Position numbers and translations under genes: made by a program
Shown here: one piece after another, positions 5,301-34,500 of the stretch
Position numbering within the stretch: position 1 is the first letter of the stretch
How the letters are laid out: each line of letters starts with the position of its first letter
Notes under the pieces: generated by a model
The model's database searches: none
The model's input: the letters and a program-made list of their open reading frames with translations, nothing else
What the model was told of the DNA's origin: nothing
Origin: Elusimicrobiota bacterium
GTDB taxonomy: Bacteria > Elusimicrobiota > Elusimicrobia > JACQJP01
Assembly: GCA_016204975.1 (NCBI GenBank)
Contig: JACQJP010000017.1
Location: forward strand, 1-55,145
Direction: 5' to 3'
Length of the DNA stretch: 55,145 nt

Positions 5301-5762
5301 TTATCCTCCTAAAAACGGCTTCTTCCGGCGCCGGGAATGATTCCGCAGCATGCAGTCATTGGAAATGACCAAGAGTCCGGCTTGGCGCGCCAGCGCTTCT
5401 CCCTCCGGGTGGGTGATTCCGTCTTGGAGCCACAGCGCCTTGGCCTTGATGGCGATGGCCTCCTGGATGATGGGAAGAACCTGCTCGCTGCGGCGAAATA
5501 CGTCCACCACGTCGACCGGCTCAGAGATCGCGGAGAGATTCGGGAAACATTGCTCGCCTAGAATCTCTTTCTGCCCTGGATTGACGGGGATGATTCGGTA
5601 TCCCTGTTCCTTGAGATAGGCGGCGACATAGTGGCTTGGCCGCTCGGGTTTCGGGGAGCAGCCTACGACAGCGATGGTCCGAAGGGCGAAAATGCGCTCG
5701 ACAATATCCTCAGCTCCGCCGCCGGAAGGAACACGGCAGCTTACCGGTTCCATCGCAGCCAA
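5301..5762 (-). CDS. CoA-binding domain protein (YccU-like)
   Basis: IAVVGCSPKPERPSHYVAAYLKEQGYRIIPVNPGQKEILGEQCFPNLSAI...ALWLQDGITHPE...CMLRNH. Confidence 0.9.
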   Translation of the reverse strand: MAAMEPVSCRVPSGGGAEDIVERIFALRTIAVVGCSPKPERPSHYVAAYLKEQGYRIIPVNPGQKEILGEQCFPNLSAISEPVDVVDVFRRSEQVLPIIQEAIAIKAKALWLQDGITHPEGEALARQAGLLVISNDCMLRNHSRRRKKPFLGG

Positions 5763-5834
5763 CTCCCGGCGCCGTGGATCATGCGCTCGTCTTCTTCTCC
5801 GGGGCGGCGCGCGCGACGCGTGTGATTATAATTT

Positions 5835-6788
5835 TCATGGCGTGCTCAAGACCAATTTCGTCTTAGGATAAAAAGCGAACCAGGCGAACCAGTAGGCGGT
5901 GGCACCGGGGATTTCGCCGCCGTCTTTTCGAAAAGCTCGGACTCCATCCTGGTATCTAAACACGATTTCCTCACCGCCCAGTTTGGCCCTTACGGCGCCC
6001 TTCTCCCTGACCAGCCTTTCCGGCACGGCAAGCGTGTTGCGACCCTGGCGTATCCCGAAAACAGGTTCCTTGGGGTGGAGTCGGGGATCTTGCCGTCCAA
6101 CGGAAAAATAGATTTCGCCTCTGGACTCGTAGCCTTGATAAGGGTCCCTGCTGTAGTCCCTGCCGTGACCGGTGGTAAATGCCGCGACGGTGGTGTCTGG
6201 ATGTTTTTGCCCCCATTCCTTCCAGGTTGTGTGGACCGCCGGCAGCCGCTTCAACGCCTTCCCAGTGGAAGGGCCCGCGATAGCCTGGCCGAGAATCTGG
6301 GACCACAGGCTTTTGCTGCTGCGGTCGTACATCACAAGGTCGCTCTTGTAGAGCAGCCCGGACACGCCGAATTCCGTCTCCTTGCTGTCCACCCGGCGGT
6401 CGAAGACGATGCCGCTGCGGCAGAGAGGGCAGTAGGTCACCGCTATAGGAACCCCGCCAACCGTGTCATTGGCGATCTCGTGCCAGTTGAGCAGGCGGAT
6501 CGGATAGGCGGACGACTCCCCATTTAACAAAATTCCAAGGACGGCGTCATCCGGCGCGAGGATGCGGTCGGCCTCTTTAACCCTGAGTTTCTTGGGATTG
6601 GTCAGGGCCGGGATGCCATCCACAGGCGGCCCGCCGCGCAAAAGCTCCTCCAGAGGCACCGAGGTCTTGGTTCGGGGATGTAGGAATGCATCCACCGGGT
6701 CTCGGCCGGAGATTGGGTCTTGGGCTGCCGCCATGGAGGTCATGAAACAGGTCCACAACAAAAACCACCACTTCCAAATGCACACCAT
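5835..6788 (-). CDS. DUF3179 domain-containing secreted protein
   Basis: Signal peptide; GVPIAVTYCPLCRSGIVFDR...FGVSGLLYKSDLVMYDRSSKSLWSQILGQAIAGP. Confidence 0.9.
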   Translation of the reverse strand: MVCIWKWWFLLWTCFMTSMAAAQDPISGRDPVDAFLHPRTKTSVPLEELLRGGPPVDGIPALTNPKKLRVKEADRILAPDDAVLGILLNGESSAYPIRLLNWHEIANDTVGGVPIAVTYCPLCRSGIVFDRRVDSKETEFGVSGLLYKSDLVMYDRSSKSLWSQILGQAIAGPSTGKALKRLPAVHTTWKEWGQKHPDTTVAAFTTGHGRDYSRDPYQGYESRGEIYFSVGRQDPRLHPKEPVFGIRQGRNTLAVPERLVREKGAVRAKLGGEEIVFRYQDGVRAFRKDGGEIPGATAYWFAWFAFYPKTKLVLSTP

Positions 6789-6941
6789 TTGCTACTCTCT
6801 GATTCTTAGTAGCGGCAGGAACGAAAATGTTACACCCCGGGCGCTGTTACGGGTTCCTGGAATCAACTGGAGGACAGTTTTAGATGGTACGCTGAGTAGG
6901 GCCGGAAGCGTTTGTCGTCGCCATAAACCCCCATGGGGATT

Positions 6942-7580
6942 CTATGGGGCAATTTGAATTTCAACGGCGTTGCCCGGCCGTATGTGCACCGGGAAGGTTT
7001 TTGCGAGTTGTTCCGGTTTGAGTTTCTCACCCCAAACCTTGAGGTCGTATTTCCCAGCGGGAACTCCCCCGATCTCGAATTTGCCTTCCGGCGTTTTAAC
7101 GAGCGTAAAATAGGGATTTTGAAGGACGAGGATGTATGCACTCATCTCCGGGTGGATGGAGCATAGAAGCGTGACTATTCCCTCCTTATCGAACTTTTTG
7201 ACGATAGGCTTTGAGCCCGGTGGCATGGCGGTGTTGAAAAGCTGTTGGGACGTTCTCCTGAGCACTTCCTTGAACCGGGCCAACAGATTGTGCAACTCTT
7301 TGTCTTTGCTCTGGAACTCTACTTCCCAGCCTTTCACGAGGGGAAGGACGTGGGGCACATAGACCAAGTTGATCTGATTCATAATAGGGCGCTCTTTAGG
7401 CAGGAGGAAAGGTCCGTCAGCTCTATCCACGTAGACGACCAGCTGGTATCCTTTTTCAAGCCAATGGCTGCTCAGTTTGCCGCTGATTTTTCCCGAAAGA
7501 TCTTCGGAGTAAGCCGCAGCAGAAATAACGAGGCAAGAGAGCGTAGGTAAAAGCGTCCGGGTTCCGACATAGCCCGCCAT
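6942..7580 (-). CDS. cupredoxin-like / methylamine-utilization-type secreted protein
   Basis: Signal peptide; KPIVKKFDKEGIVTLLCSIHPEMSAYILVLQNPYFTLVKTPEGKFEIGGVPAGKYDLKVWGEKL. Confidence 0.6.
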   Translation of the reverse strand: MAGYVGTRTLLPTLSCLVISAAAYSEDLSGKISGKLSSHWLEKGYQLVVYVDRADGPFLLPKERPIMNQINLVYVPHVLPLVKGWEVEFQSKDKELHNLLARFKEVLRRTSQQLFNTAMPPGSKPIVKKFDKEGIVTLLCSIHPEMSAYILVLQNPYFTLVKTPEGKFEIGGVPAGKYDLKVWGEKLKPEQLAKTFPVHIRPGNAVEIQIAP

Positions 7581-19210: not shown

Positions 19211-20833
19211 GTGAATAGCCAAACCGTTGTCCTCGGGGCCCTGGCGGTTTTTGCCTTGGGCTTTCGTTTTTATGGCAGGCTGTTGGAGAGGGTTTTTGGG
19301 CTGGATCCTCGCCGGGCGACTCCCGCCTGCCGGTTTCGCGACGACTTAGACTACGTTCCGGCGCGGAGCTGGTGGGTCCTCTTCGGGCATCACTTTTCCA
19401 GCATCTGCGGAGCGGGGCCCATCGTGGGACCGGCGCTGGCCATCGCTTATTGGGGTTGGGGGGCGAGCCTCCTTTGGATTCTTTTGGGGACGGTTTTCCT
19501 GGGCGCGGTTTCGGATTTTTCCGCTTTAATGGTAAGCCTGCGCCACCGTGGAAAATCGGTTTCGGAGATCTCGGGGGGAGCGATCGGCGCCCGGGCCCGG
19601 CTGCTGTTTTCCGTTTTCATTTGGCTTTCCCTGATCCTGGTGCTCGCCGTCTTTGTGGATTTGACCGCCCAAACCTTCGTCCATAAGCCCCAGATCGTGC
19701 TCCCTTCCTGGGGGCTGATGCCGGTGGCGCTGGGGGTGGGAATATTGCTCCATCGCAGGCGGTGGGGGTTGATTCCGGTAACCTCCCTGGGTCTTTTCCT
19801 CCTGGCGGGGCTTTTGGTGGGCGGGCAGTGGCTTCCGGTGGCGCTTTCCCCCAAGATCTGGATCCTGCTGCTTTTGGGCTACTGCTATGCGGCGGCCGTT
19901 CTGCCGGTACATATCCTTCTTCAGCCACGGGACTACCTGGCCAGCTACCTCCTTTTTGGAACGGTGGCTTTGGGGATACTGGGGGCGGTGTTTTTCCGCC
20001 TGCCGATGCAGGGGGAGTTCCTTCACTCCTGGCAGCCTTTCGGGGAGCTGGGCTCCGGCCCCCTGTGGCCGATGTTGTTTGTGACCATCGCCTGCGGAGC
20101 CATCTCCGGCTTCCATACATTGGTTTCCAGCGGAACCACCTCCAAACAGATTGCTTCGGAGGCCCACGCTTGCCGCATCGGGTATGGGGGGATGCTGATG
20201 GAGGGTTTGGTGGGAGTGCTGGTAGTGGTCAGCGTGGGAGCCGGGCTTTCCACTGGGCGGCATATGGAGATTTTAAAAGGAGGGGGGGCGGTGGCTGCTT
20301 TTGGGGAAGGGTTTGGAAACCTCGTTTCGCGGGTGGCGGGGGGCTATGGGGAGCTCTTTGCGGTTTTGGCCCTGAATACCTTTATTTTGACGACCTTGGA
20401 TACCGCCGCCCGGGTGGGAAGATATGTTCTGGAGGAGGTTGCCGGGATTTCCAATCGGTATCTTTCCACGGGGGTGGTGGTTCTGGCTGCGGCGGCCCTG
20501 GCGCTGCCTGGACACTGGGCCAGGATCTGGGCGGTTTTTGGAACCTCCAACCAGCTTATCGCAGGCCTGTCGCTCCTTTTGGTCAGCGTCTGGCTCGCCT
20601 CCCAGAGGCGCCCCGTCTGGTACACCCTGGCTCCCGCCGGCTTTATGCTGCTGACCACACTGGCCTCTTTTGGCTACCAGATCTACACTTACCTCAATCG
20701 TCCGCAGCCCGACTGGCTCCTGACCGCAATTTCTCTGGTGCTTTCCGGATTGGCCCTGGCCTTCCTGTGGGATTGCCTTAAGAAGCTGCTTCCCAGCGGC
20801 GGACTGCCGACTGCGGGCCTTAGTAGAGATTAA
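19211..20833 (+). CDS. cstA: carbon starvation protein CstA family
   Basis: RFYGRLLERVFGLDPRRATPACRFRDDLDYVPARSWWVLFGHHFSSICGAGPIVGPALAIAYWGW; GAISGFHTLVSSGTTSKQI. Confidence 0.93.
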   Translation: MNSQTVVLGALAVFALGFRFYGRLLERVFGLDPRRATPACRFRDDLDYVPARSWWVLFGHHFSSICGAGPIVGPALAIAYWGWGASLLWILLGTVFLGAVSDFSALMVSLRHRGKSVSEISGGAIGARARLLFSVFIWLSLILVLAVFVDLTAQTFVHKPQIVLPSWGLMPVALGVGILLHRRRWGLIPVTSLGLFLLAGLLVGGQWLPVALSPKIWILLLLGYCYAAAVLPVHILLQPRDYLASYLLFGTVALGILGAVFFRLPMQGEFLHSWQPFGELGSGPLWPMLFVTIACGAISGFHTLVSSGTTSKQIASEAHACRIGYGGMLMEGLVGVLVVVSVGAGLSTGRHMEILKGGGAVAAFGEGFGNLVSRVAGGYGELFAVLALNTFILTTLDTAARVGRYVLEEVAGISNRYLSTGVVVLAAAALALPGHWARIWAVFGTSNQLIAGLSLLLVSVWLASQRRPVWYTLAPAGFMLLTTLASFGYQIYTYLNRPQPDWLLTAISLVLSGLALAFLWDCLKKLLPSGGLPTAGLSRD

Positions 20834-23501
20834 AAAGGACTTCGAGCTCCATGTAGACGGGGACGGGCTTACCCTTGCGCTCGCTGGGCTTAAACTTCCA
20901 GGTCGTCTTGACCGTTTCGGTGGCCTTTTCATCCAAACCCATTCCCAGGCCTTTCAGTACTCGTATCACATCCAGGCCGCCATCGGTGCGGACCACCACT
21001 AAGAGGACGACCATTCCCTGATGTTTTGCTTTTCTGGCCTCTTCCGTGAATTGCGGTTCTGGACAGGATATACATGTGGGCTCTGAGACGTCCCCTCCGA
21101 CCTGAAAAACCCCTCCCCCATATCCGCCTCCCCAGCCTGGACCGAGTCCGGGACCTGTGCCGGATCCGATCCCTCCACCAGGCCCTGTTCCGATGCCCCC
21201 GCCGCTTCCGGGGCCTCCGGAGGGAATCAAGCTCCCCGCCAGGGGATCTCCGTAGGCGGCGATGTCGGGGGATTGAATCTGGATATTAGGCGGCACTACC
21301 AGAGTCGGCTCCGCCGGCAGTCTTGGATTTGGATTTCTAATGACTGCGGCCGGAGGGGTCAACTGGGCCTTTAGGGAAAACCTGGGGAGCCTTCCCTTGG
21401 AGGGAGGGAGAGGGTTTCTTTCTCCGCCCCCGCCGCCTCCTCCCGTCTCGGTCTTTTTTGGTTTCTTGACGGGAATCCAGGTCACCTTGTATTCTCCCGG
21501 AGGGGCCGCTTGCGCTTGGGCCTTTGATTCCGTGGAGAGCTCTGGCGCAGTCACGATGTAGAGTCCGGGCGGAAGAGCCGTAATCAATGCGACCGCTGTT
21601 TTTAAAACGATGCGCTTCCAGAATTCCTTTCTCTTTTCAGGGGTGGAGACCAGACCGGTGTCCGCCGCCAGAACATAGGCCCAATCTTCTTTGGAGAGCT
21701 TCACCGGGACTTGGCGGCGAATCAGGGTTCTTAGATTGGTGAGAAAATTGTCCTCGTAGGAGTTCTCGGAGACCTGCTCTCTGAGCCGGATGTCATTTTC
21801 GGCGAAGGCCCTGGAGGCCAGGGCATAGGCTAGGCCTCCTATGGCGGCGAAGAGAATTCCCGTTTCAAAGACCCCCATCAGCATCCAGAAGATGCCGCTG
21901 GGGCCGGCGGCATAGCCCAAAGCCCTGGTGAGCAGGATGGCTTTCGAGGGACCTTCCTTGCGCAGCGTCACTTGGCGGAAAAAGTAGAGAAGGTTGCCCG
22001 CCAGCAGAAGTCCTCCTCCCGTGCCCAGCAGGTAAAACGGCAGCAGTTTATTCGGGAAGGCCCCCTGAACGATGAGGACGCTGATGGCTATCGCCGCGGC
22101 CAAGGCTCCCAGCCCGGCCAGAGAGATCGCCGCGGCGCTGGGCCTCGGAAGGGGGGGATTCCCCGGCTTGGGGCCGGCCTGTCTGAGAATGCGGATATGC
22201 TCCTTTAGAGCCTGGAAGCTCGAAAGCGCAGATTCCGACTTTACCTCGGTGTAGAGTCTTTTGGCCAGGACTTTTTCATCCACTGCGATCGGTTCCAGGT
22301 TGACGCCTGCCTTGGGCTGGGGAAATTTAAACTTGCTTCCGACTTCGGTATAGAGCTTATCTGTGAACTCTCGAGTTTCAGGGTCCAAATCCTTTGGTTG
22401 GAGTAACGGGATGGGTGCTGTTGCTTCCTCGATCTCCCGGGTCTTCTCTTGAGGGAATAAAATCCTGCCCGAGTGGGTTTGTTGGGTCTTCTGTCTTTGG
22501 TAGAGTGTGAGGAGGGCGATGCCTGCGGCATAGCCCCCGAATAAGATGTAATAGAAGTAAGAGGAGAAATTCAACCGGGGAATTCCGAATCCATCGGAGG
22601 CCAGGGCCTCTGCCGGCACAAGTCCTAAGGCCATCCCCAAGACCACCGTTGCGGTCCCCAGAGCGTAAAGAACGGAGGTCTTGCCGGATTGCGCCAGGGG
22701 GGCCGCCGCCTGTCTTTGCGGTGCGACAGTTGTGAGGGTTGGGTGAATGACGGCATCCCGAAGTTTTTGCTGTGGGATAGTAGAGGGGCCAGCCGGGGTC
22801 CCCGCACCCTCCACAGAGTTCCGGGCACCGGTCGGGGCCCCAGAGGGGCCCAGCGTACCGGAGAGGCCCAGCACGCTGGCGTTGGCCAGCGCCAAGACGG
22901 CGGCTTCTGTTTCTTTAGAGGGGATGAAAATTTTCTTTCCCGCTGTTTGAACCTCCTCCTGTGATCCGGTTCGAAGGGCGGTTTTCACCGCTTCCCGCGA
23001 GGCTTCACCTTGAGAGGAGATTTTTTCTACGGCGGGCCCTGTTTGGGCGGCAACGGCCTTTTCAATGGGGTATCGGATTTTTACGACGGCTTGCCCAATG
23101 CTCCCATCTTCTAAGAGGGTGAGGATTTCCCCTCTTTGGAGAGGAGTGGTTCCGCCCTCCAGGACGATGATCTCCCGGCTGTCGGCGCCGACTGCGAAGG
23201 TGGCCCCGGTGTCGGGCCGGGTGGCGATCCAGCGGATGTCTTGGCCGAAGTGGATACTGAAGGGATTGATGCGGGGAAATTCGGTGACGGCAAAGCCCTG
23301 TTTAGTCAGCGCCCGGACCAGTGGGGAAATCTTGACTTGGCCCATGGCGGCCCAGGCGCGGTAAGCCGCCGGACCCGGGGAGGTCACCAGGACCGAGGCG
23401 GAAAGGAGCAGGGAAAGAAGCTGAGAGAGTTTGTTCCTGGCCGGCATGGCTGAACCTCCAAGAAATTCTAAGGAACTTTGCTTATTCCGGCATGGGTCCA
23501 A
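20820..23501 (-). CDS. large multi-TM protein with Gly-rich linker and C-terminal TonB domain
   Basis: N-terminal signal LLSLLLSASVLVTSPG; several hydrophobic segments; Gly-rich linker; PEPQFTEEARKAKHQGMVVLLVVVRTDGGLDVIRVLKGLGMGLDEKATETVKTTWKFKPSERKGKPV. Confidence 0.7.
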   Translation of the reverse strand: MDPCRNKQSSLEFLGGSAMPARNKLSQLLSLLLSASVLVTSPGPAAYRAWAAMGQVKISPLVRALTKQGFAVTEFPRINPFSIHFGQDIRWIATRPDTGATFAVGADSREIIVLEGGTTPLQRGEILTLLEDGSIGQAVVKIRYPIEKAVAAQTGPAVEKISSQGEASREAVKTALRTGSQEEVQTAGKKIFIPSKETEAAVLALANASVLGLSGTLGPSGAPTGARNSVEGAGTPAGPSTIPQQKLRDAVIHPTLTTVAPQRQAAAPLAQSGKTSVLYALGTATVVLGMALGLVPAEALASDGFGIPRLNFSSYFYYILFGGYAAGIALLTLYQRQKTQQTHSGRILFPQEKTREIEEATAPIPLLQPKDLDPETREFTDKLYTEVGSKFKFPQPKAGVNLEPIAVDEKVLAKRLYTEVKSESALSSFQALKEHIRILRQAGPKPGNPPLPRPSAAAISLAGLGALAAAIAISVLIVQGAFPNKLLPFYLLGTGGGLLLAGNLLYFFRQVTLRKEGPSKAILLTRALGYAAGPSGIFWMLMGVFETGILFAAIGGLAYALASRAFAENDIRLREQVSENSYEDNFLTNLRTLIRRQVPVKLSKEDWAYVLAADTGLVSTPEKRKEFWKRIVLKTAVALITALPPGLYIVTAPELSTESKAQAQAAPPGEYKVTWIPVKKPKKTETGGGGGGGERNPLPPSKGRLPRFSLKAQLTPPAAVIRNPNPRLPAEPTLVVPPNIQIQSPDIAAYGDPLAGSLIPSGGPGSGGGIGTGPGGGIGSGTGPGLGPGWGGGYGGGVFQVGGDVSEPTCISCPEPQFTEEARKAKHQGMVVLLVVVRTDGGLDVIRVLKGLGMGLDEKATETVKTTWKFKPSERKGKPVPVYMELEVLFNLY

Positions 23502-26272: not shown

Positions 26273-27592
26273 ATGCTTATTACTTTATTGTGGGTGTTTT
26301 TCCATGGTTTTGCCCATGGGGTGACCTTTGAGGACATCTTTCCGGGGGCCTGGGCGGCGGGGGTGGGACAGGCCTATACCGCCTTGGGGGATGATACCTT
26401 CTCCCTATTTTACAATCCGGCGGCTCTGGCGGATCGAGACCACCTGGAAGTCTCCTTTGATCTGGGACGCTCCTTTTCCCCGAGTCCGGTCACCTCTCCC
26501 CTTTCCTTGGGAGCTTGGACCTATTCCCGCCCGGTGCCCGTCCGACCGGGGGCTAATTTTTCCGCCTCGTGGATGTGGCTGCGGCAAGGTGAGGTGGCCG
26601 ATCGGGATTCCTTCCATTTTTCCTGGGCCCAACCGTTTGTGATCCCCCAGCTGCAAGGGTATCTTCAGAAACCAATCAAGGTGGGGGGGAGCTTCAAGAT
26701 TTTAAGCGTTCGCCGTCCGAGCGGATCCGATGTGGGGATCGGCTTAGATGGGGGGGTGCTCCTGGAGGCCGAGAATAATCTGCGGTTTGGTTTTTCCTTT
26801 TTGGGTTTGGACACGGGCAACCTGGGACTCCAGACTCCGTTTGTCAGTTGGGGCCTTTCTTATCCCTACCGATTCCTGAGTCTCAACGCGGATCTGAGGA
26901 TCCGCAAGGGCTTGACGGTGGTCTACCCCGGCATAGAAGCGACCCTCCTGGAGGGGCTGCTGCAACTGCGTTTCGGGAAGGGCATGCCCATTGGGGGGGT
27001 GGGTGGCGTAGCCTTTGGGTTGGGGCTCAGGATCTTGCCTTGGATTGTGGATTATGCGGTGACGCTGCCCATTGAGGGACTGCATCAAAACGGCGGATCC
27101 CACCGCATCTCCCTCGCCTATCGCTTTGGGGAGGCTCCCTTCTACACCCGCTTTGTGGGAAGGGCTTCTGAGCGGGCGGAGAGCCTCAGGAAAGAGATCT
27201 CGCAGTTGGAAAAACACAAGGAGACTTTGCAGGAGGGGATCCGGGAGGCCTCCATCAATCAGCGTTTGGCCCAGGAGGACTTTCGGCGGTTGGAACTGAG
27301 GCTGGAGGATTTAAAACTGCAAGAGAAACGGCTGTTGCGGGAGCTGGGGCGCCCGAAGCCTCCCAGCCCTCCCGCGTCAAAGTCCCTGATAATAAAAAAA
27401 GCCGTCTCCCCAAAGACTCTCCAATGGCCCAGGAGCCATCGCGTCGCTGCCGGCGAAACCTTGCGTAGCCTGGCACAGAGGTATTACGGAGACGCCAACC
27501 TCTGGGAGAAGATTTATAAGGCCAACCGCGGCTCCATTGAGCGGGGGCTGCCCCAGGTGGGTTCGGACCTAGTCATCCCCGACCCCCGGTAG
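26273..27592 (+). CDS. PorV/PorQ-like outer-membrane barrel with coiled coil and C-terminal LysM
   Basis: AAGVGQAYTALGDDTFSLFYNPAALAD; coiled coil SLRKEISQLEKHKETLQ...LEDLKLQEKRLLREL; HRVAAGETLRSLAQRYYGDANLWEKIYKANRGSI. Confidence 0.75.
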   Translation: MLITLLWVFFHGFAHGVTFEDIFPGAWAAGVGQAYTALGDDTFSLFYNPAALADRDHLEVSFDLGRSFSPSPVTSPLSLGAWTYSRPVPVRPGANFSASWMWLRQGEVADRDSFHFSWAQPFVIPQLQGYLQKPIKVGGSFKILSVRRPSGSDVGIGLDGGVLLEAENNLRFGFSFLGLDTGNLGLQTPFVSWGLSYPYRFLSLNADLRIRKGLTVVYPGIEATLLEGLLQLRFGKGMPIGGVGGVAFGLGLRILPWIVDYAVTLPIEGLHQNGGSHRISLAYRFGEAPFYTRFVGRASERAESLRKEISQLEKHKETLQEGIREASINQRLAQEDFRRLELRLEDLKLQEKRLLRELGRPKPPSPPASKSLIIKKAVSPKTLQWPRSHRVAAGETLRSLAQRYYGDANLWEKIYKANRGSIERGLPQVGSDLVIPDPR

Positions 27593-27611: not shown

Positions 27612-28793
27612 ATGTCTCGTATTCTTGTTGCGATTCCTCAGGAGTCCTGGCGGCAGGATCTTGCTTTGCTGCTGGAATCTTTGGGACATGAGGTTTCCTC
27701 CGTACAGGCTCGCCCGGAGATGCTGGAGCATTTGAAGGGGGAGTTTCCGGAGCTGCTTTTTATGGCGGACGGGATCGAGGAGACTCCGGCGGAATCTCTG
27801 CTCCGGGAGATTCAGGTGGCCTCCCCTTTGACGACGGTCGTGGTGTGCTTGAAGAGCCGCGACGCGACCCGGGCGGTGGAGGTGCTCAAAGCGGGGGCGT
27901 TTGAGTGCGTGGCTCCACCCTGGACTTGCGAGGGGTTGGATGTGGTAATCCGTAAGGCCGTACGGTGGAGTGGGACGGCGCTTTCCCTGGCGGAGGCTTC
28001 CCGGCGGGAGCGGGTCAGGATCTGGCTGAGGTTTCCCCGGGTGTTGATCTGCGCCGCAGTCTTGGCGCTTCTCATCTCGGCAGGCCTGATAGGTCGGCGG
28101 GCCTATTTTCCAGCCCAGCCGCCGGAGGCTCCGCATTGGGCGCTGCCCTACCGCCACCCTGCCGGGCTGGCCTGGGACGGAAAGGTTTTGTGGGTGGCGG
28201 ACTGGTTTTCTCAAGCGGTTTATCTTGGGGAGTTGCACCCCGGATTTTCGGTGAAAAAAACCTATCATTTTCCCACTTGGGTCCCGGTGACCCTGGCTTT
28301 TGTGGAAGGAACGCTTTGGAGCGCCAGCGCCTCCGGCAAGATTCAGAAACACCTCCTGGACGGCTCCTTGACGGTGGTGGAGTCTTACCCCGCCGTCGGT
28401 CCGGCCACCACCGGACTTTGCTATGATGGGTTGTATCTTTGGAGCGCCGAGGCCTCCGCGCCCCTGATCACCAAGCACCTGCTGGATTCCAAGCTGAGTG
28501 TGGTGGAGCGGTATCCCTATCCCGGCGGCAAGCCCGCCGGCCTGGTCTACGATGGAAAGAACCTTTGGTCTTTGGACGCCGTTAGCGGCCAGCTTTTGGA
28601 GCATGATATCTCTCAGCCGGACCGGGTGCTCGGCCGTTGGCCATTGGAGATTTATCAGACTGGGCAGTGGAAGGCGGCAGGTCTGGCATGGGATGGGCGG
28701 TTTTTTTGGAGTGTGGCGGAGCCTCTCGAAGAGTCCGAAAGGTCTCAGGAGACAGCTCGCATTTTTCGCCACGGCGTCTTGCGGGAGGGGTAG
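27612..28793 (+). CDS. degenerate receiver domain, TM helix and predicted beta-propeller
   Basis: N-terminal CheY-like skeleton (AVEVLKAGAFECVAPPW); TM VLICAAVLALLISAGLI; four repeats around GLAWDGKVLWVAD / GLCYDGLYLWSAE / GLVYDGKNLWSLD / GLAWDGRFFWSVA. Confidence 0.7.
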   Translation: MSRILVAIPQESWRQDLALLLESLGHEVSSVQARPEMLEHLKGEFPELLFMADGIEETPAESLLREIQVASPLTTVVVCLKSRDATRAVEVLKAGAFECVAPPWTCEGLDVVIRKAVRWSGTALSLAEASRRERVRIWLRFPRVLICAAVLALLISAGLIGRRAYFPAQPPEAPHWALPYRHPAGLAWDGKVLWVADWFSQAVYLGELHPGFSVKKTYHFPTWVPVTLAFVEGTLWSASASGKIQKHLLDGSLTVVESYPAVGPATTGLCYDGLYLWSAEASAPLITKHLLDSKLSVVERYPYPGGKPAGLVYDGKNLWSLDAVSGQLLEHDISQPDRVLGRWPLEIYQTGQWKAAGLAWDGRFFWSVAEPLEESERSQETARIFRHGVLREG

Positions 28794-29111
28794 ATGCGGC
28801 GGCGCGTGGTTCGCCTGAGTCAGTGGATTCCGCTTTTGATCACCTATCCGGAACGGGAACTTCAAGATTCCTGGGGGCATCTGTTGGATCTGAGCCTTTT
28901 CGGAGCGCGCTTTCAGACGCGAGCGCCCTTGAAGAGAGGGCAGGAGATTTTTTTGAGCTTTTCGATTGGGGAGAATTTTTTTCAAAAGATTCGCTCTAGG
29001 ACGGTGCGGGCCCGGCGCGATGCGGAAGGATATTGGCTGGCCGGGGCGGAGTTTTTGGAGCCGCCGGAAAAGAAGCGCCTGAAGGATGTCTTGGTGAGGT
29101 TGGTAGGATGA
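28794..29111 (+). CDS. PilZ domain protein
   Basis: RRRVVR and DLSLFGAR (RxxxR and DxSxxG). Confidence 0.8.
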   Translation: MRRRVVRLSQWIPLLITYPERELQDSWGHLLDLSLFGARFQTRAPLKRGQEIFLSFSIGENFFQKIRSRTVRARRDAEGYWLAGAEFLEPPEKKRLKDVLVRLVG

Positions 29112-30178
29112 AATTTACCATCTATTTGCTTTTTCCGTTTGACCTGGGGTTGGAGCTGGATTTTTCCGGCAAGGATCAAAACAAGATATTTAAGGAGCTT
29201 GCCACCCGGCAGATTCCCGATCTGACCCTGGAAGGGCAGGTCCTTTCCTCTGCGGAGGTCACCTTTCAGATCTATCGCTTTGGGGTAGGGCTCATCCAGA
29301 CGGCCTTCAGTTTGGAGGCGGATCTGGAGCGCTGCGCGCAGCTGGCGTGGAACGCCGATCGAATCCGCCTGGGAAAAAGGGATTTGGTGGGATATTGCCA
29401 ATCCATGGTGGAGGGGATTATCGAGCGGGCTAAGCCTTACGCCACCTACACTTATGACCAGCGTTTGGAGGAGTCGGAGGTCTTTCCGGTGTTTGTCCTG
29501 CAGGATTTTATCCGCAAGGACGCCGGGGGGTTTATCCGCCGGCATGAGAAGCTCCTCTACGGCATCGTGGCCAATGAGCCGGACTGGAGCCGCCTGTCTC
29601 CCTTTGTCTTAAAGCAGGATCCCTTGGAAAACTACGGCTACTATGAGTACGAGTTGATACTGATTAAGCGCTACGGGTCGGTGGTGAGTTCGGCGCAATC
29701 CAAGGAGCTGATGGAGTCCATCGCCACCAGCTACGCCCAGTACTGGAGCCTCCGCTCCTACTCCGCCTACTTAGATGGCGAGATGGAACGGACACAGAAG
29801 CTGTTGGAAGATTTGCCTCCCTTTTATAAGTTTTGGAAAGCCCCGCAGCGCTACCGGCGCTATAGCGAGGAGGCGATTGATTTTAGCCGGGATAAGCTCT
29901 CCATCGTGGATTCCTTGTATAACCGTTCCGCGCTGAGAATCGCTTCCGATTCCGATTGGTACTTTCGAAGGTTTTCGGAGACGGCGGCGAAGGTATTTCA
30001 GGTGGAGGAGATGTATCGGGAGGTGGAGCTTAAATTGGATCGAATTGAGAGCGCCTACAACTCCGCCCGGGACTACATCGCCACCAACTTCTTCATCATT
30101 TTGGATTTTATCTTTTTCTTCTGGTTGACCTGGTCCATCCTGGATACCTACCTCCTGTGGAAGATGGCCGGAAAGTAG
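29108..30178 (+). CDS. hypothetical protein with C-terminal membrane anchor
   Basis: C-terminal FFIILDFIFFFWLTWSILDTYLLW; ATGA overlap with PilZ gene. Weak DUF155/CorA-like layout only. Confidence 0.55.
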   Translation: MKFTIYLLFPFDLGLELDFSGKDQNKIFKELATRQIPDLTLEGQVLSSAEVTFQIYRFGVGLIQTAFSLEADLERCAQLAWNADRIRLGKRDLVGYCQSMVEGIIERAKPYATYTYDQRLEESEVFPVFVLQDFIRKDAGGFIRRHEKLLYGIVANEPDWSRLSPFVLKQDPLENYGYYEYELILIKRYGSVVSSAQSKELMESIATSYAQYWSLRSYSAYLDGEMERTQKLLEDLPPFYKFWKAPQRYRRYSEEAIDFSRDKLSIVDSLYNRSALRIASDSDWYFRRFSETAAKVFQVEEMYREVELKLDRIESAYNSARDYIATNFFIILDFIFFFWLTWSILDTYLLWKMAGK

Positions 30179-30189
30179 GCGGCGTCCTG

Positions 30190-31290
30190 ATGGGGCGTGA
30201 GAAAATGTTAAAAAGAACTCCCTTGTATGAGTTGCAAAAGCGGGCCGGGGCCAAGTTCGTGGATTTTCACGGTTGGGAGCTGCCGCTTCATTATGGGAGC
30301 ATTCTCCAAGAGCACCATGCCGTCCGCCGAGGGGCCGGGCTGTTTGACATCTCCCACATGGGACGTTTCTGGATCCGGGGTCCGGGGGCCTTTGCGTTTC
30401 TCCAGAAAACGACCAGCAACGACTTCCGGCGGGCGCCGGTAGGACGGGCCCTCTATACGCATCTTTTAAACGAGCGGGGAGGGGTGATGGACGATGTGGT
30501 GGTGTTCTGTCTCCGGCAGGATGTGTATGGGATGGTGGTCAATGCCGGACGTCGTCAGGTGGATTGGGAGTGGCTTAGGACCCATACCGGCAAAGCCCAG
30601 ATGGAACTGGAGGACGTTTCAGAAGAGTCCGCCATGCTGGGGCTTCAGGGGCCGAGTTCTCCTAAGCTTCTGGAGGGTTTCTGCCCCTCGGCGCTGGCCC
30701 TGAAACGCTTCGGGGTCTTACAGACCCAATATGACAACCAGAGGCTTCTGGTCAGCCGCACCGGTTATACGGGGGAGGATGGGTTTGAGTGGATTGTGTC
30801 GCGTAGCGTGGCCCCTTCGCTTTGGGAGAGACTTCTGGCTTTGGGAGAGCCTGGCCGTTTGAGGCCCTGCGGCCTGGGCGCGCGGGACACCTTGAGGTTG
30901 GAGGCCGGGTATTTGCTGTATGGCGCCGACATTGACGAGGAACATACGCCTTTGGAAGCGGGTTACGATTGGGTGGTGCGTTGGGACAAGGGCTCCTTCA
31001 TCGGTCGGGAGGCTCTGGAGCGCCAGAGGGAGAACGGATTCTCTAAGAAGATACGCGGGGTGAAGCTTTTAGAAAAGGGCGTCCTGCATGCTGGCGCCTC
31101 GGTCCTGTTTCAAGGGAAGGGGGTGGGGAAGCTGACCAGCGGAAGTTTTTCGCCGAGTTTAGGCGTGGGAATCGGCATGGGATATTTGGAGGAAAAACTT
31201 CCGGCCGGCGCGCGGGTAGAGGTGGAGGTGCGGGGTAGGCGCCTGGCGGCGGAGGTGGTGCCGCTTCCCTTTTATGCTAAAGGAAAGTAA
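30190..31290 (+). CDS. gcvT: glycine cleavage system T protein
   Basis: FVDFHGWELPLHYGSILQEHHAVRRGAGLFDISHMGRFWI; SRTGYTGEDGFE; GARDTLRLEAGYLLYG. Confidence 0.96.
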   Translation: MGREKMLKRTPLYELQKRAGAKFVDFHGWELPLHYGSILQEHHAVRRGAGLFDISHMGRFWIRGPGAFAFLQKTTSNDFRRAPVGRALYTHLLNERGGVMDDVVVFCLRQDVYGMVVNAGRRQVDWEWLRTHTGKAQMELEDVSEESAMLGLQGPSSPKLLEGFCPSALALKRFGVLQTQYDNQRLLVSRTGYTGEDGFEWIVSRSVAPSLWERLLALGEPGRLRPCGLGARDTLRLEAGYLLYGADIDEEHTPLEAGYDWVVRWDKGSFIGREALERQRENGFSKKIRGVKLLEKGVLHAGASVLFQGKGVGKLTSGSFSPSLGVGIGMGYLEEKLPAGARVEVEVRGRRLAAEVVPLPFYAKGK

Positions 31291-31310
31291 AATAAAATCC
31301 GGAGCTTGCG

Positions 31311-31706
31311 ATGCCAAACCCTGAGCAGTGTCGGTTCGCAAAGACCCATGAGTGGATTTTTGCGCAGGGGAACCAGGCCACGGTGGGCCTCTCCGATCAT
31401 GCGCAGCGGGAGATTTCGGATGTCGTCTATGTGGAGCTTCCTGTGGTCGGGCGAAAACTCAAAGCCGGGGAGTCCTGTGCGGTGGTGGAGTCGGTCAAGG
31501 CCGCCTTTGATGTCTATGCGCCGGTTTCTGGGACGGTGACGGAGGTGAATCAGGAGCTTCACAATGATGTGTCCCGGATCAATCAGTCTCCCTATGAGAA
31601 GGGCTGGATGTTCCGGTTGGAGATGGAGGATCCTTCCCAGTGGAGTCGGCAGATGGATCATGCGGCGTACCAGGAGTTTGTGAAGAGCGCGGCGAGTTCC
31701 CACTGA
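31311..31706 (+). CDS. gcvH: glycine cleavage system H protein
   Basis: THEWIFAQGNQATVGLSDHAQREISDVVYVELP; AVVESVKAAFDVYAPVSG lipoyl-lysine site. Confidence 0.96.
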   Translation: MPNPEQCRFAKTHEWIFAQGNQATVGLSDHAQREISDVVYVELPVVGRKLKAGESCAVVESVKAAFDVYAPVSGTVTEVNQELHNDVSRINQSPYEKGWMFRLEMEDPSQWSRQMDHAAYQEFVKSAASSH

Positions 31707-33040
31707 TGTTTGTTCCCACCACGGATTCAGAAAAGCGGGAGATGCTTGAAGCCATCGGGGTGGATTGCGTGGAGGAGCTTTTCCAATCTATTCCACCCTC
31801 TCTGCGCTTTCCAGGCCTGAGGGGCCTTCCGCCCCCCGCCGGTGAGCTGGAGGTTTTTCGCCATGTTCAGGCATTGGCGGAGGGGAATCGTCCTCTGCGG
31901 TGTTTCGCTGGAGCGGGGGCCTATGACCATTATATTCCCTCCGCTGTCTGGGCGTTGGCCATGCGGGGGGAATTCGCCACCGCCTACACCCCCTACCAGG
32001 CGGAGGCCAACCAGGGGGCGCTTCAGGCGCTCTATGAGTTCCAGAGCCTGGTTTGTGAGCTTTTGGGCACCGAGGTGGCCAATGCTTCTCTATACGATGG
32101 AGCCAGCGCCCTGGCGGAGGCGGTTTTGATGGCGCTGCGTCACCACCCCGAACGCCGGAAGGTGTTGTATTCCCAGGGAATTCACCCCCAGAGCCTCCAG
32201 ACCCTAAAGACCTACGCGGCCAATCTGGAGGTGGAGTGGGTTCCGCTTCCTCTGACCCCTGAGGGGACAACCGATCTTAATCAACTTCGGCAGAAGCTTT
32301 CGGAGGAGGTGGCCTGCGTCCTTCTGCAGCACCCCAATTTCTTCGGGTGCTTGGAGGAGGTGGAGGAGGTTTGCCACGCCTCTAGCGCCCAGGGGGCGCT
32401 GTCGGTTGTTTCCACCTATCCGGTGGCCTTGGGACTTCTGCGTCCTCCGGGGGAGTGTGGAGCGGACGCGGTGGTGGCGGAGGGGCAGTCTTTGGGAATT
32501 CCCCTGAGCTTCGGAGGACCGTATCTCGGACTTTTTGGGACCCGGCAGGCCCTGTTGCGCCGAATTCCTGGACGGATCTGCGGAATGACCGCGGACTTGG
32601 AAGGCAGTCGTAGCTTTGTCTTGACGTTGCAGGCCAGGGAGCAGCACATCCGTAGGGAAAGGGCGACCTCCAACATCTGCACCAATGAGGCCTTGTGCGC
32701 CTTGGCGGCCAGCATCTTTTTGGCCTTGTTGGGGCCCCAAGGGCTTCGAGAGTTGGCGGAGCTGAATTTTTACCTGGCCCATCGGCTGGCGCGTAGGCTG
32801 GAGAGGCTGCCCGGATTTAGGCTTAGGTATGCCACTCCCTTCTTCAATGAGTTTGTGCTGGATTGCCCCGTCCCTGCCGGGAAGCTCCATCGGAAGATGC
32901 GGGCCAAGGGGTATCTGGCGGGAGTCTGCTTGGACCCATGGTTTCCGAAACTCAAAAACAGCCTGCTTCTTTGCGCGACAGAGACCAGGACGGAACAGGA
33001 GCAGGAGGAGTTTTGCGCAGAGCTCAAGAGATGCCTCTAA
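31706..33040 (+). CDS. gcvPA: glycine dehydrogenase (decarboxylating) subunit 1
   Basis: FAGAGAYDHYIPSAVWALAMRGEFATAYTPYQAEANQGALQALYEFQSLVCELLGTEVANASLYDGASALAEA. Confidence 0.96.
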   Translation: MFVPTTDSEKREMLEAIGVDCVEELFQSIPPSLRFPGLRGLPPPAGELEVFRHVQALAEGNRPLRCFAGAGAYDHYIPSAVWALAMRGEFATAYTPYQAEANQGALQALYEFQSLVCELLGTEVANASLYDGASALAEAVLMALRHHPERRKVLYSQGIHPQSLQTLKTYAANLEVEWVPLPLTPEGTTDLNQLRQKLSEEVACVLLQHPNFFGCLEEVEEVCHASSAQGALSVVSTYPVALGLLRPPGECGADAVVAEGQSLGIPLSFGGPYLGLFGTRQALLRRIPGRICGMTADLEGSRSFVLTLQAREQHIRRERATSNICTNEALCALAASIFLALLGPQGLRELAELNFYLAHRLARRLERLPGFRLRYATPFFNEFVLDCPVPAGKLHRKMRAKGYLAGVCLDPWFPKLKNSLLLCATETRTEQEQEEFCAELKRCL

Positions 33041-34500
33041 GGGCGGAGCCTCTGCTGTCGGAGCGCTCGGTTCGCGGCCGGCGAGGCGTGAGGTACCCTC
33101 GGCCTGCCCGTTTGCCTGCGGATCATGAGTTGCCTGCGCACTTGCGCCGAAGGGCCCTGCGGCTTCCGGAACTCTCGGAACTGGATGTGGTTCGGCATTA
33201 CACGCGGCTTTCTCAGAAAAATTTCGGGGTGGACACCCATTTTATTCCCTTGGGTTCCTGCACCATGAAATACAATCCCAAGTTGAATGATCGTTTGAGC
33301 TTCCTGCCGGGTTTTCAGAATCTCCATCCCCTCACAACGCAGGAGGCGCTGCAGGGGATCCTGGAGCTCTTCTTTGAACTGGAGAAGTGGCTTTGCGAGC
33401 TTTGCGGCATGGATGCCTTTACCCTGCAGCCGGCTGCGGGGGCGCATGGGGAGCTGGCCGGCATTTTGATTGCCAGGGCCTACCACCGGAGCCGAAAAGA
33501 GTCGGCCAGGGTGGAGGTTTTAATTCCCGACTCCGCCCATGGAACCAACCCCGCCTCGGCAGCGCTGGGAGGGTTTACGGTCATTCCCATCCGTTCCAAC
33601 ACGCGGGGAAGGGTGGATCTGGAGGATTTTAAAAGCAAGCTGGGTCCCCGGACGGCTCTGGTGATGCTGACCGTCCCCAATACGCTGGGACTTTTTGAAG
33701 ATGAAATCCTGGAGATTGCAAGGCTCGGCCATGAGGCGGGGGCTCTGTTATATCTGGACGGCGCCAATCTGAACGCCTTGATGGGAATCCTAAAGCCCGG
33801 GGAGTTGGGTTTTGACCTGTTGCATCTCAACCTGCATAAGACCTTCTCCATTCCCCATGGGGGAGGGGGCCCGGGAGGAGGGCCTTTGGGGGTGCGTAAG
33901 TCCTTGGAAGATTTTCTGCCGATGCCCCGCGTGGTTCGGGAAAAGGGCGCCTACCGCCTGCGGGAAAATTCCAAAAAGACAATCGGAAGAATCCGCTCTT
34001 TTTTCGGCAACGTGGGGGCGTTGGTTCGGGCCTATGCCTACATCCGCTCTTTGGGAGGGACGGGGTTGCGGCAAGTCAGCGAGACGGCGGTCCTGCATGC
34101 CAACTACCTCCGGGTGAGGCTCCGCAAGGAGTTTCCGTCTTTCGTGGATGAGCCCTGCATGCATGAGTGCGTGCTCCAGGCCGTAGGGCCCTCCTGGAAC
34201 GGGGTGAAGACACAGGACGTGGCCAAGCGCCTTTTGGATTTCGGGTTTTACGCCCCCACCATCTACTTTCCGCTGATTGTTCCGGAAGCTTTGATGATCG
34301 AGCCCACCGAGACGGAGTCCAAACAGACACTGGATGAGTTTATCGAGGCGATGCGGCAGATCGCGCAGGAAGCCCAAAGCTGCCCGGAGAGGCTTCGGGC
34401 GGCTCCGCACCATACGCATGTCCGGCGGGTGGATGAGGTCCAGGCGGCCCGGAAGCCGAATCTGCGGTGGGGCAGGGGGGAGGGTGGCGGAGGCCTTTAG
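33031..34500 (+). CDS. gcvPB: glycine dehydrogenase (decarboxylating) subunit 2
   Basis: PLGSCTMKYNPKLND; QPAAGAHGELAGILIARAYH; PDSAHGTNPASAALGG; LNLHKTFSIPHGGGGPGGGP. Confidence 0.96.
   Translation: MPLRAEPLLSERSVRGRRGVRYPRPARLPADHELPAHLRRRALRLPELSELDVVRHYTRLSQKNFGVDTHFIPLGSCTMKYNPKLNDRLSFLPGFQNLHPLTTQEALQGILELFFELEKWLCELCGMDAFTLQPAAGAHGELAGILIARAYHRSRKESARVEVLIPDSAHGTNPASAALGGFTVIPIRSNTRGRVDLEDFKSKLGPRTALVMLTVPNTLGLFEDEILEIARLGHEAGALLYLDGANLNALMGILKPGELGFDLLHLNLHKTFSIPHGGGGPGGGPLGVRKSLEDFLPMPRVVREKGAYRLRENSKKTIGRIRSFFGNVGALVRAYAYIRSLGGTGLRQVSETAVLHANYLRVRLRKEFPSFVDEPCMHECVLQAVGPSWNGVKTQDVAKRLLDFGFYAPTIYFPLIVPEALMIEPTETESKQTLDEFIEAMRQIAQEAQSCPERLRAAPHHTHVRRVDEVQAARKPNLRWGRGEGGGGL

Follow-up and report, generated by a model that had tools for sequence, protein, structure and literature searches.

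What does a receiver domain do when it has lost the residues for phosphotransfer, and on what does it act when a membrane helix ties it to a propeller? The gene at 27612-28793 (+) of the window, by which we mean the whole stretch of 55,145 nucleotides of Elusimicrobiota DNA analyzed here, raises both questions. A 2025 review describes it as still a mystery how bacterial pseudo-receivers are turned on and off (PMC12632262). Below we describe the protein, its relatives with intact receivers, the genes that accompany the two forms, and the readings that these observations favor.

Domain architecture of the encoded protein

The open reading frame 27612-28793 (+) extends from ATG to TAG and encodes a protein of 393 amino acids. 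An AlphaFold model (mean pLDDT 78), for which the input consisted of three sequences (the protein itself, L021 and L022), gives a (βα)5 receiver that a linker of low confidence joins to a membrane helix (residues 142-163), followed by a propeller (residues 175-387). The product is confirmed as a CheY-fold receiver (residues 1-119) connected by one membrane helix to a propeller. A first-pass annotation of this DNA had proposed these three parts and would have had to be abandoned if structure prediction gave no REC fold at the N-terminus; the model contains all three, the REC fold included. Matches to the protein were found in 62 of the 98 related genomes searched, and a search for the architecture in other genomes returned full-length relatives (roughly 35-45% identity; two contig matches at 43-44%) from many genera of the class. 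Because these relatives share the full-length layout, the architecture is not due to chance. A sequencing or frame artefact is rejected as well, since relatives from independent genomes have the same frame and the same losses. The gene is not part of a recognized anti-phage system, as PADLOC gave no match.

The receiver domain (27612-27968, +) is recognized by Pfam Response_reg (PF00072) over residues 11-107 with E=5.9e-5, which for this single protein is below Pfam's own cut-off; all 17 members of the family alignment match, the best with E=8.8e-35. In the AlphaFold model β-strands (residues 3-7, 27-30, 48-52, 75-79 and 98-100) alternate with α-helices (11-23, 34-44, 60-70, 85-93 and 106-119), and the pLDDT of this block is 69-89. 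The family alignment places Ile and Pro at the acidic pair (codons 8-9, 27633-27638, +), Ala at the phospho-Asp position (codon 52, 27765-27767, +; D53 is next), Leu at the conserved Thr/Ser (codon 80, 27849-27851, +) and Pro at the conserved Lys (codon 102, 27915-27917, +), which is followed by P103-W104. Both residues of Y-T coupling are also lost. Thus, of the features that define PF00072 the (βα)5 fold is present, whereas the acidic pair, phospho-Asp, Thr/Ser and Lys are absent, and the domain is a bacterial pseudo-receiver in the sense of being recognized as a receiver that lacks the phosphotransfer residues (PMC12632262). The alignment bears out the losses read earlier from the single sequence (IP at the acidic pair, Ala at the phospho-Asp, a replaced Lys), and with I8/P9, A52, L80 and P102 all deviating it supports the proposal of a pseudo-receiver that would act independently of phosphorylation.

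The single membrane helix (28035-28100, +) is indicated by the AlphaFold model, by a hydropathy of 2.34 and by charge, with six Lys/Arg residues on the N-terminal side and two on the C-terminal side, a distribution that supports an N-in orientation for this protein. Among intact relatives the N-terminal side is richer in Lys/Arg in 31 proteins and the C-terminal side in 8, which favors the same orientation for most of them. In the degenerate set introduced below these numbers are 19 and 29, so that by charge the topology is ambiguous there. From the single helix and a cytoplasmic receiver we infer that the propeller is extracytoplasmic, and for the 27612-28793 protein the charge adds support. 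The first-pass annotation had also placed the propeller across the membrane; the single helix attached to a receiver agrees with this, but the charge is equivocal over the degenerate set.

The propeller (28134-28772, +) is defined by the AlphaFold strands and by Foldseek. It has five blades of four strands each, and its N-terminal first strand closes the last blade; the first-pass annotation was right that a propeller is present, but its estimate of about four repeats is replaced by five blades. Among the top structures returned by Foldseek are the propellers of the glutaminyl cyclases 2iwa, 3mbr, 2faw and 3nok. The glutaminyl cyclotransferases 2iwa, 3mbr and 3nok are likewise five-bladed (TM-score 0.67-0.69, normalized by target), but share 13-14% identity with the propeller described here. 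Despite the similar fold, identity as a glutaminyl cyclase was rejected, as the corresponding Pfam family has no match at E≤0.1 in any of 17 family members.

Intact and degenerate receivers in the family

A profile of 17 members detects full-length copies over the phylum, also outside the class to which the 27612-28793 gene belongs; its tally of 312/341 genomes takes in plain receivers as well and does not give the frequency of the REC-TM-propeller architecture. The genome searches were made within the phylum; the one match from outside it, on a Coatesbacteria contig (L023), has the propeller only. For comparison of receivers, we used 106 full-length REC-TM-propeller genes from regions fetched around relatives, 50 of which encode receivers with complete catalytic residues and 56 degenerate ones. 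The first acidic position (8) is Asp or Glu in 50/50 intact and 0/56 degenerate receivers. The conserved Lys (position 102) shows the same distribution, Thr or Ser occurs at position 80 in 48/50 and 1/56, and Tyr or Phe three residues before the Lys in 47/50 and 0/56. In 11 of the 56 an Asp appears in the phospho-Asp column, probably a neighboring acidic residue shifted by a gap; these were counted as degenerate because they lack the acidic first position, the Thr and the Lys.

The degenerate receivers have a signature of their own. At the start of α4 (codons 83-87, RDATR, 27858-27872, +) column counts give R83 in 55/56, D84 in 42/56 and R87 in 47/56 of the degenerate set, while R83 and R87 are each found in 0/50 intact receivers. 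At β5-α5, position 104 is Trp or Phe in 48/56. Pairs of related degenerate receivers have dN/dS values of 0.08-0.37, similar to those of their propellers and of intact receivers. The dead receivers are under purifying selection, and together with their conservation across many genera this rules out a decaying pseudogene.

A system of intact receiver and kinase is either the ancestor or the sister of the degenerate version. In the genome that harbors the 27612-28793 gene (87% complete), the search turned up no REC-TM-propeller gene with an intact receiver. On the propeller tree the degenerate genes require at least two changes, and a single origin of all of them except L049 is not rejected (AU p=0.49). 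The exchange of kinase for PilZ-like neighbor described below may thus represent one or few events inherited by many genes.

Histidine kinase genes accompany the intact receivers

Of the 50 intact receiver genes, 45 have a same-strand histidine kinase gene next to them, against only one of the 56 degenerate ones (Fisher p about 5e-23, a value that is overstated because the genes are related). Representative kinases match HisKA and HATPase_c, and the kinases beside intact receivers keep the phospho-His wherever the H-box is readable; the partial kinase at L124 lacks that stretch. Five intact genes lack a kinase on their own strand. Four of these have other phospho-signaling genes nearby: a divergent kinase (L100, two genes) and CheC/CheD-like neighbors (L102 and L103), the latter recognized by eye and not by a family search. 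The 27612-28793 gene has no kinase gene beside it and thus does not form a two-component pair with an adjacent cognate kinase. Overall, the comparison shows that loss of receiver chemistry accompanies loss of the kinase.

The sole kinase beside a degenerate receiver is encoded at 5557-6988 of the reverse-complemented locus L063 (genome G015); in its H-box the phospho-His is replaced by Gln. A PilZ gene is also present at this locus, followed by a homolog (377 bits) of the 356-amino-acid protein that is encoded downstream of the PilZ gene in the window; among the loci examined this homolog occurs only there. Because the Gln-kinase, the PilZ gene and the homolog occur together, L063 is an apparent intermediate, with a dead kinase, a dead receiver and a PilZ gene.

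These neighborhoods bear on the direction of signaling. The first-pass annotation held that the propeller senses a ligand outside and relays inward, a claim that in this form finds no support, as the intact relatives adjoin a histidine kinase gene. Because these relatives have a complete receiver next to such a gene, a flow from inside to outside is suggested. The main rival is a receptor of opposite direction, in which the propeller would respond to a ligand in the periplasm or to the PorV/LysM protein described below, and the pseudo-receiver would pass its state through protein contact to a cytoplasmic partner such as PilZ. Propellers often bind ligands, one type of propeller carries different cytoplasmic heads as a receptor might, and the pseudo-receiver has kept a conserved patch. 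There is also a precedent in PknD of Mycobacterium tuberculosis, a Ser/Thr kinase sensor with a cytoplasmic kinase, one transmembrane segment and an extracellular six-bladed propeller of the NHL type. Against this, the kinase gene beside intact relatives makes the receiver the natural input, and an enzymatic output is absent from both the receiver and the coiled-coil heads of paralogs. Sensing from outside to inside is therefore less parsimonious than signaling from inside to outside, and we consider it unlikely.

A PilZ-like gene accompanies the degenerate receivers

The start codon of the next gene (28794-29111, +) immediately follows the stop codon of the 27612-28793 gene. It encodes a stand-alone PilZ domain (Pfam PilZ E=4.5e-9) with both c-di-GMP motifs, RxxxR (RRVVR) and (D/N)xSxxG (DLSLFG), and from these motifs it is predicted to bind c-di-GMP. 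A PilZ-like gene on the same strand is located beside 53/56 degenerate and 0/50 intact receiver genes (Fisher p about 9e-27, again overstated by the relatedness of the genes). Both motifs are kept in only 5 of 55 PilZ-like neighbors, and only 5 of the 16 neighbors tested match Pfam PilZ; the remaining ones were joined to the group by a family profile and by an alignment in which P13, W27 and G28 are invariant. We accordingly rejected c-di-GMP acting through PilZ as a general input. Because so few of these neighbors keep the motifs or match Pfam, the association between receiver and PilZ-like protein may depend on contact between the two proteins, c-di-GMP having been kept in only some lineages.

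The second messenger could also act on the pseudo-receiver itself, with the PilZ gene being secondary. In ShkA, the pseudo-receiver REC1 binds c-di-GMP on its α4-β5-α5 surface (PMC7010744, PMC12632262), and the newly conserved Arg, Asp and Trp residues of the degenerate set are found in α4 and β5-α5. GGDEF genes are present, but as a correlate they are uninformative, since they occur in 98/98 genomes with or without the REC-TM-propeller family. We regard direct binding of c-di-GMP by this receiver as very improbable.

The PilZ stop codon is overlapped by the gene for the 356-amino-acid protein (29108-30178, +), which has a hydrophobic C-terminal segment and matches no Pfam family. Glycine cleavage genes (30157-34500) follow the operon. 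In 25 of the 56 degenerate loci GcvT lies no more than 2.5 kb downstream, and these genes were taken as neighbors only, not as functionally linked.

The PorV-like neighbor and the variable cytoplasmic head

The gene upstream (26273-27592, +) ends 19 nt before the 27612-28793 gene. It encodes a predicted outer-membrane protein resembling PorV/PorQ, with a coiled coil and a C-terminal LysM domain (NCBIfam PorV_fam and LysM). Its match to PorV_fam (E=2.4e-8, 33.9 bits) is under the cut-off of 90, as are those of its relatives (up to 74.9 bits), and because this cut-off is not reached we call the protein PorV-like and not PorV. The structural model is of low confidence (pLDDT 54) and was used only for the order of strands, helices and LysM. 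The PorV-LysM, 27612-28793 and PilZ genes are spaced as in an operon. A PorV-LysM gene on the same strand lies upstream of 54/56 degenerate genes and beside 20/50 intact ones. Further away, the window encodes an 893-amino-acid protein with a TonB C-terminal domain (20820-23501, -).

Paralogs of the membrane-anchored propeller (L064, L066, L067 and L071-L075) carry long coiled coils instead of the receiver and have a total length of about 600-1200 amino acids; one of them, L064 (G000:C30), is found in the same genome as the 27612-28793 gene. Some have a PorV-like gene beside them (L064, where it is upstream, and L073). As this gene adjoins both the degenerate loci and some of the coiled-coil paralogs, the propeller and the PorV-like protein look like a constant core, and the cytoplasmic head like the variable part and input.

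The same arrangement could serve as a static tether, the next alternative after the outward-facing receptor, in which the propeller would link PorV-LysM and peptidoglycan to the inner membrane while the pseudo-receiver would only dimerize or localize the protein. The frequency of the PorV-LysM gene beside degenerate genes fits such a role, as do the long coiled coils that replace the receiver in paralogs, and dead receivers can serve as docking domains, for example in FrzS (PMC12632262). On the other hand, receiver status strongly tracks the type of neighbor, kinase or PilZ, which suggests regulation and not pure structure. We judge a purely structural role improbable.

Proposed mechanism

The reading that we prefer, at close to even chances, takes the protein for a response regulator that signals from inside to outside. 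Its receiver would have degenerated and lost phosphorylation, its only output would be the propeller in the periplasm, and its input would come from another protein, for which the PilZ-like neighbor is the likeliest candidate. In the intact version, the histidine kinase encoded by the adjacent gene would phosphorylate the membrane-anchored receiver, which would act across the membrane on the propeller, the sole possible output within its own protein; the propeller would probably engage the outer-membrane PorV/LysM partner. In the branch of the 27612-28793 gene, the receiver has lost the Asp chemistry and the Y-T coupling with retention of the fold, and it has a new conserved patch at α4-β5-α5 (R83-D84-A-x-R87 and P103-W104-T). 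Its input would now most likely be protein contact, for which the adjacent PilZ-like protein appears the best candidate. The analysis shows a predicted fold, the loss of the catalytic residues, purifying selection and the exchange of kinase for PilZ genes in the neighborhoods; the contacts with PilZ and PorV-LysM, the periplasmic location and the signaling direction are inferred.

More generally, the family might represent a class of membrane-anchored response regulators with an extracytoplasmic propeller output that are driven by kinases, one branch of which has become a kinase-free, PilZ-controlled pseudo-receiver switch; we put this forward tentatively, as a possibility that is somewhat doubtful. 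If true, two-component and second-messenger signals could reach the cell envelope from inside without transcription, and response regulators would act directly on the envelope by means of a domain outside the cytoplasm. The family provides matched pairs with the same membrane-anchored propeller, a live receiver next to a kinase gene and a dead receiver next to a PilZ-like gene, and together with L063 these allow tests of how a receiver continues to function without phosphate.

Comparison with known systems

Our literature searches returned no membrane-anchored response regulators and no receiver-propeller fusions. A parallel in layout is PknD, which shares the order of cytoplasmic signaling domain, transmembrane segment and propeller, but here the cytoplasmic domain is a receiver and the propeller has five blades. 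An archaeal membrane-anchored output domain, MetOD3, is mentioned in PMC5847659. FimX resembles the present protein in being a c-di-GMP-linked protein with a degenerate REC domain, and has a c-di-GMP-binding EAL domain (PMC12564702); its organization is REC-PAS-GGDEF-EAL, without transmembrane segment or propeller. In the HapZ-SagS system, a stand-alone PilZ protein works together with a two-component signaling protein (PMC12564702), whereas the candidate target here is a membrane-anchored degenerate receiver, which gene neighborhood links to PilZ. Like FrzS, ShkA REC1, NblR and the second receiver of PleD, the domain has a receiver fold without phosphotransfer residues (PMC12632262). Searching the text of that review gave no mention of a transmembrane segment, PilZ or Elusimicrobiota; compared with these known pseudo-receivers, the distinguishing features here are the membrane anchor, the propeller on the far side and the existence of phospho-competent sisters.
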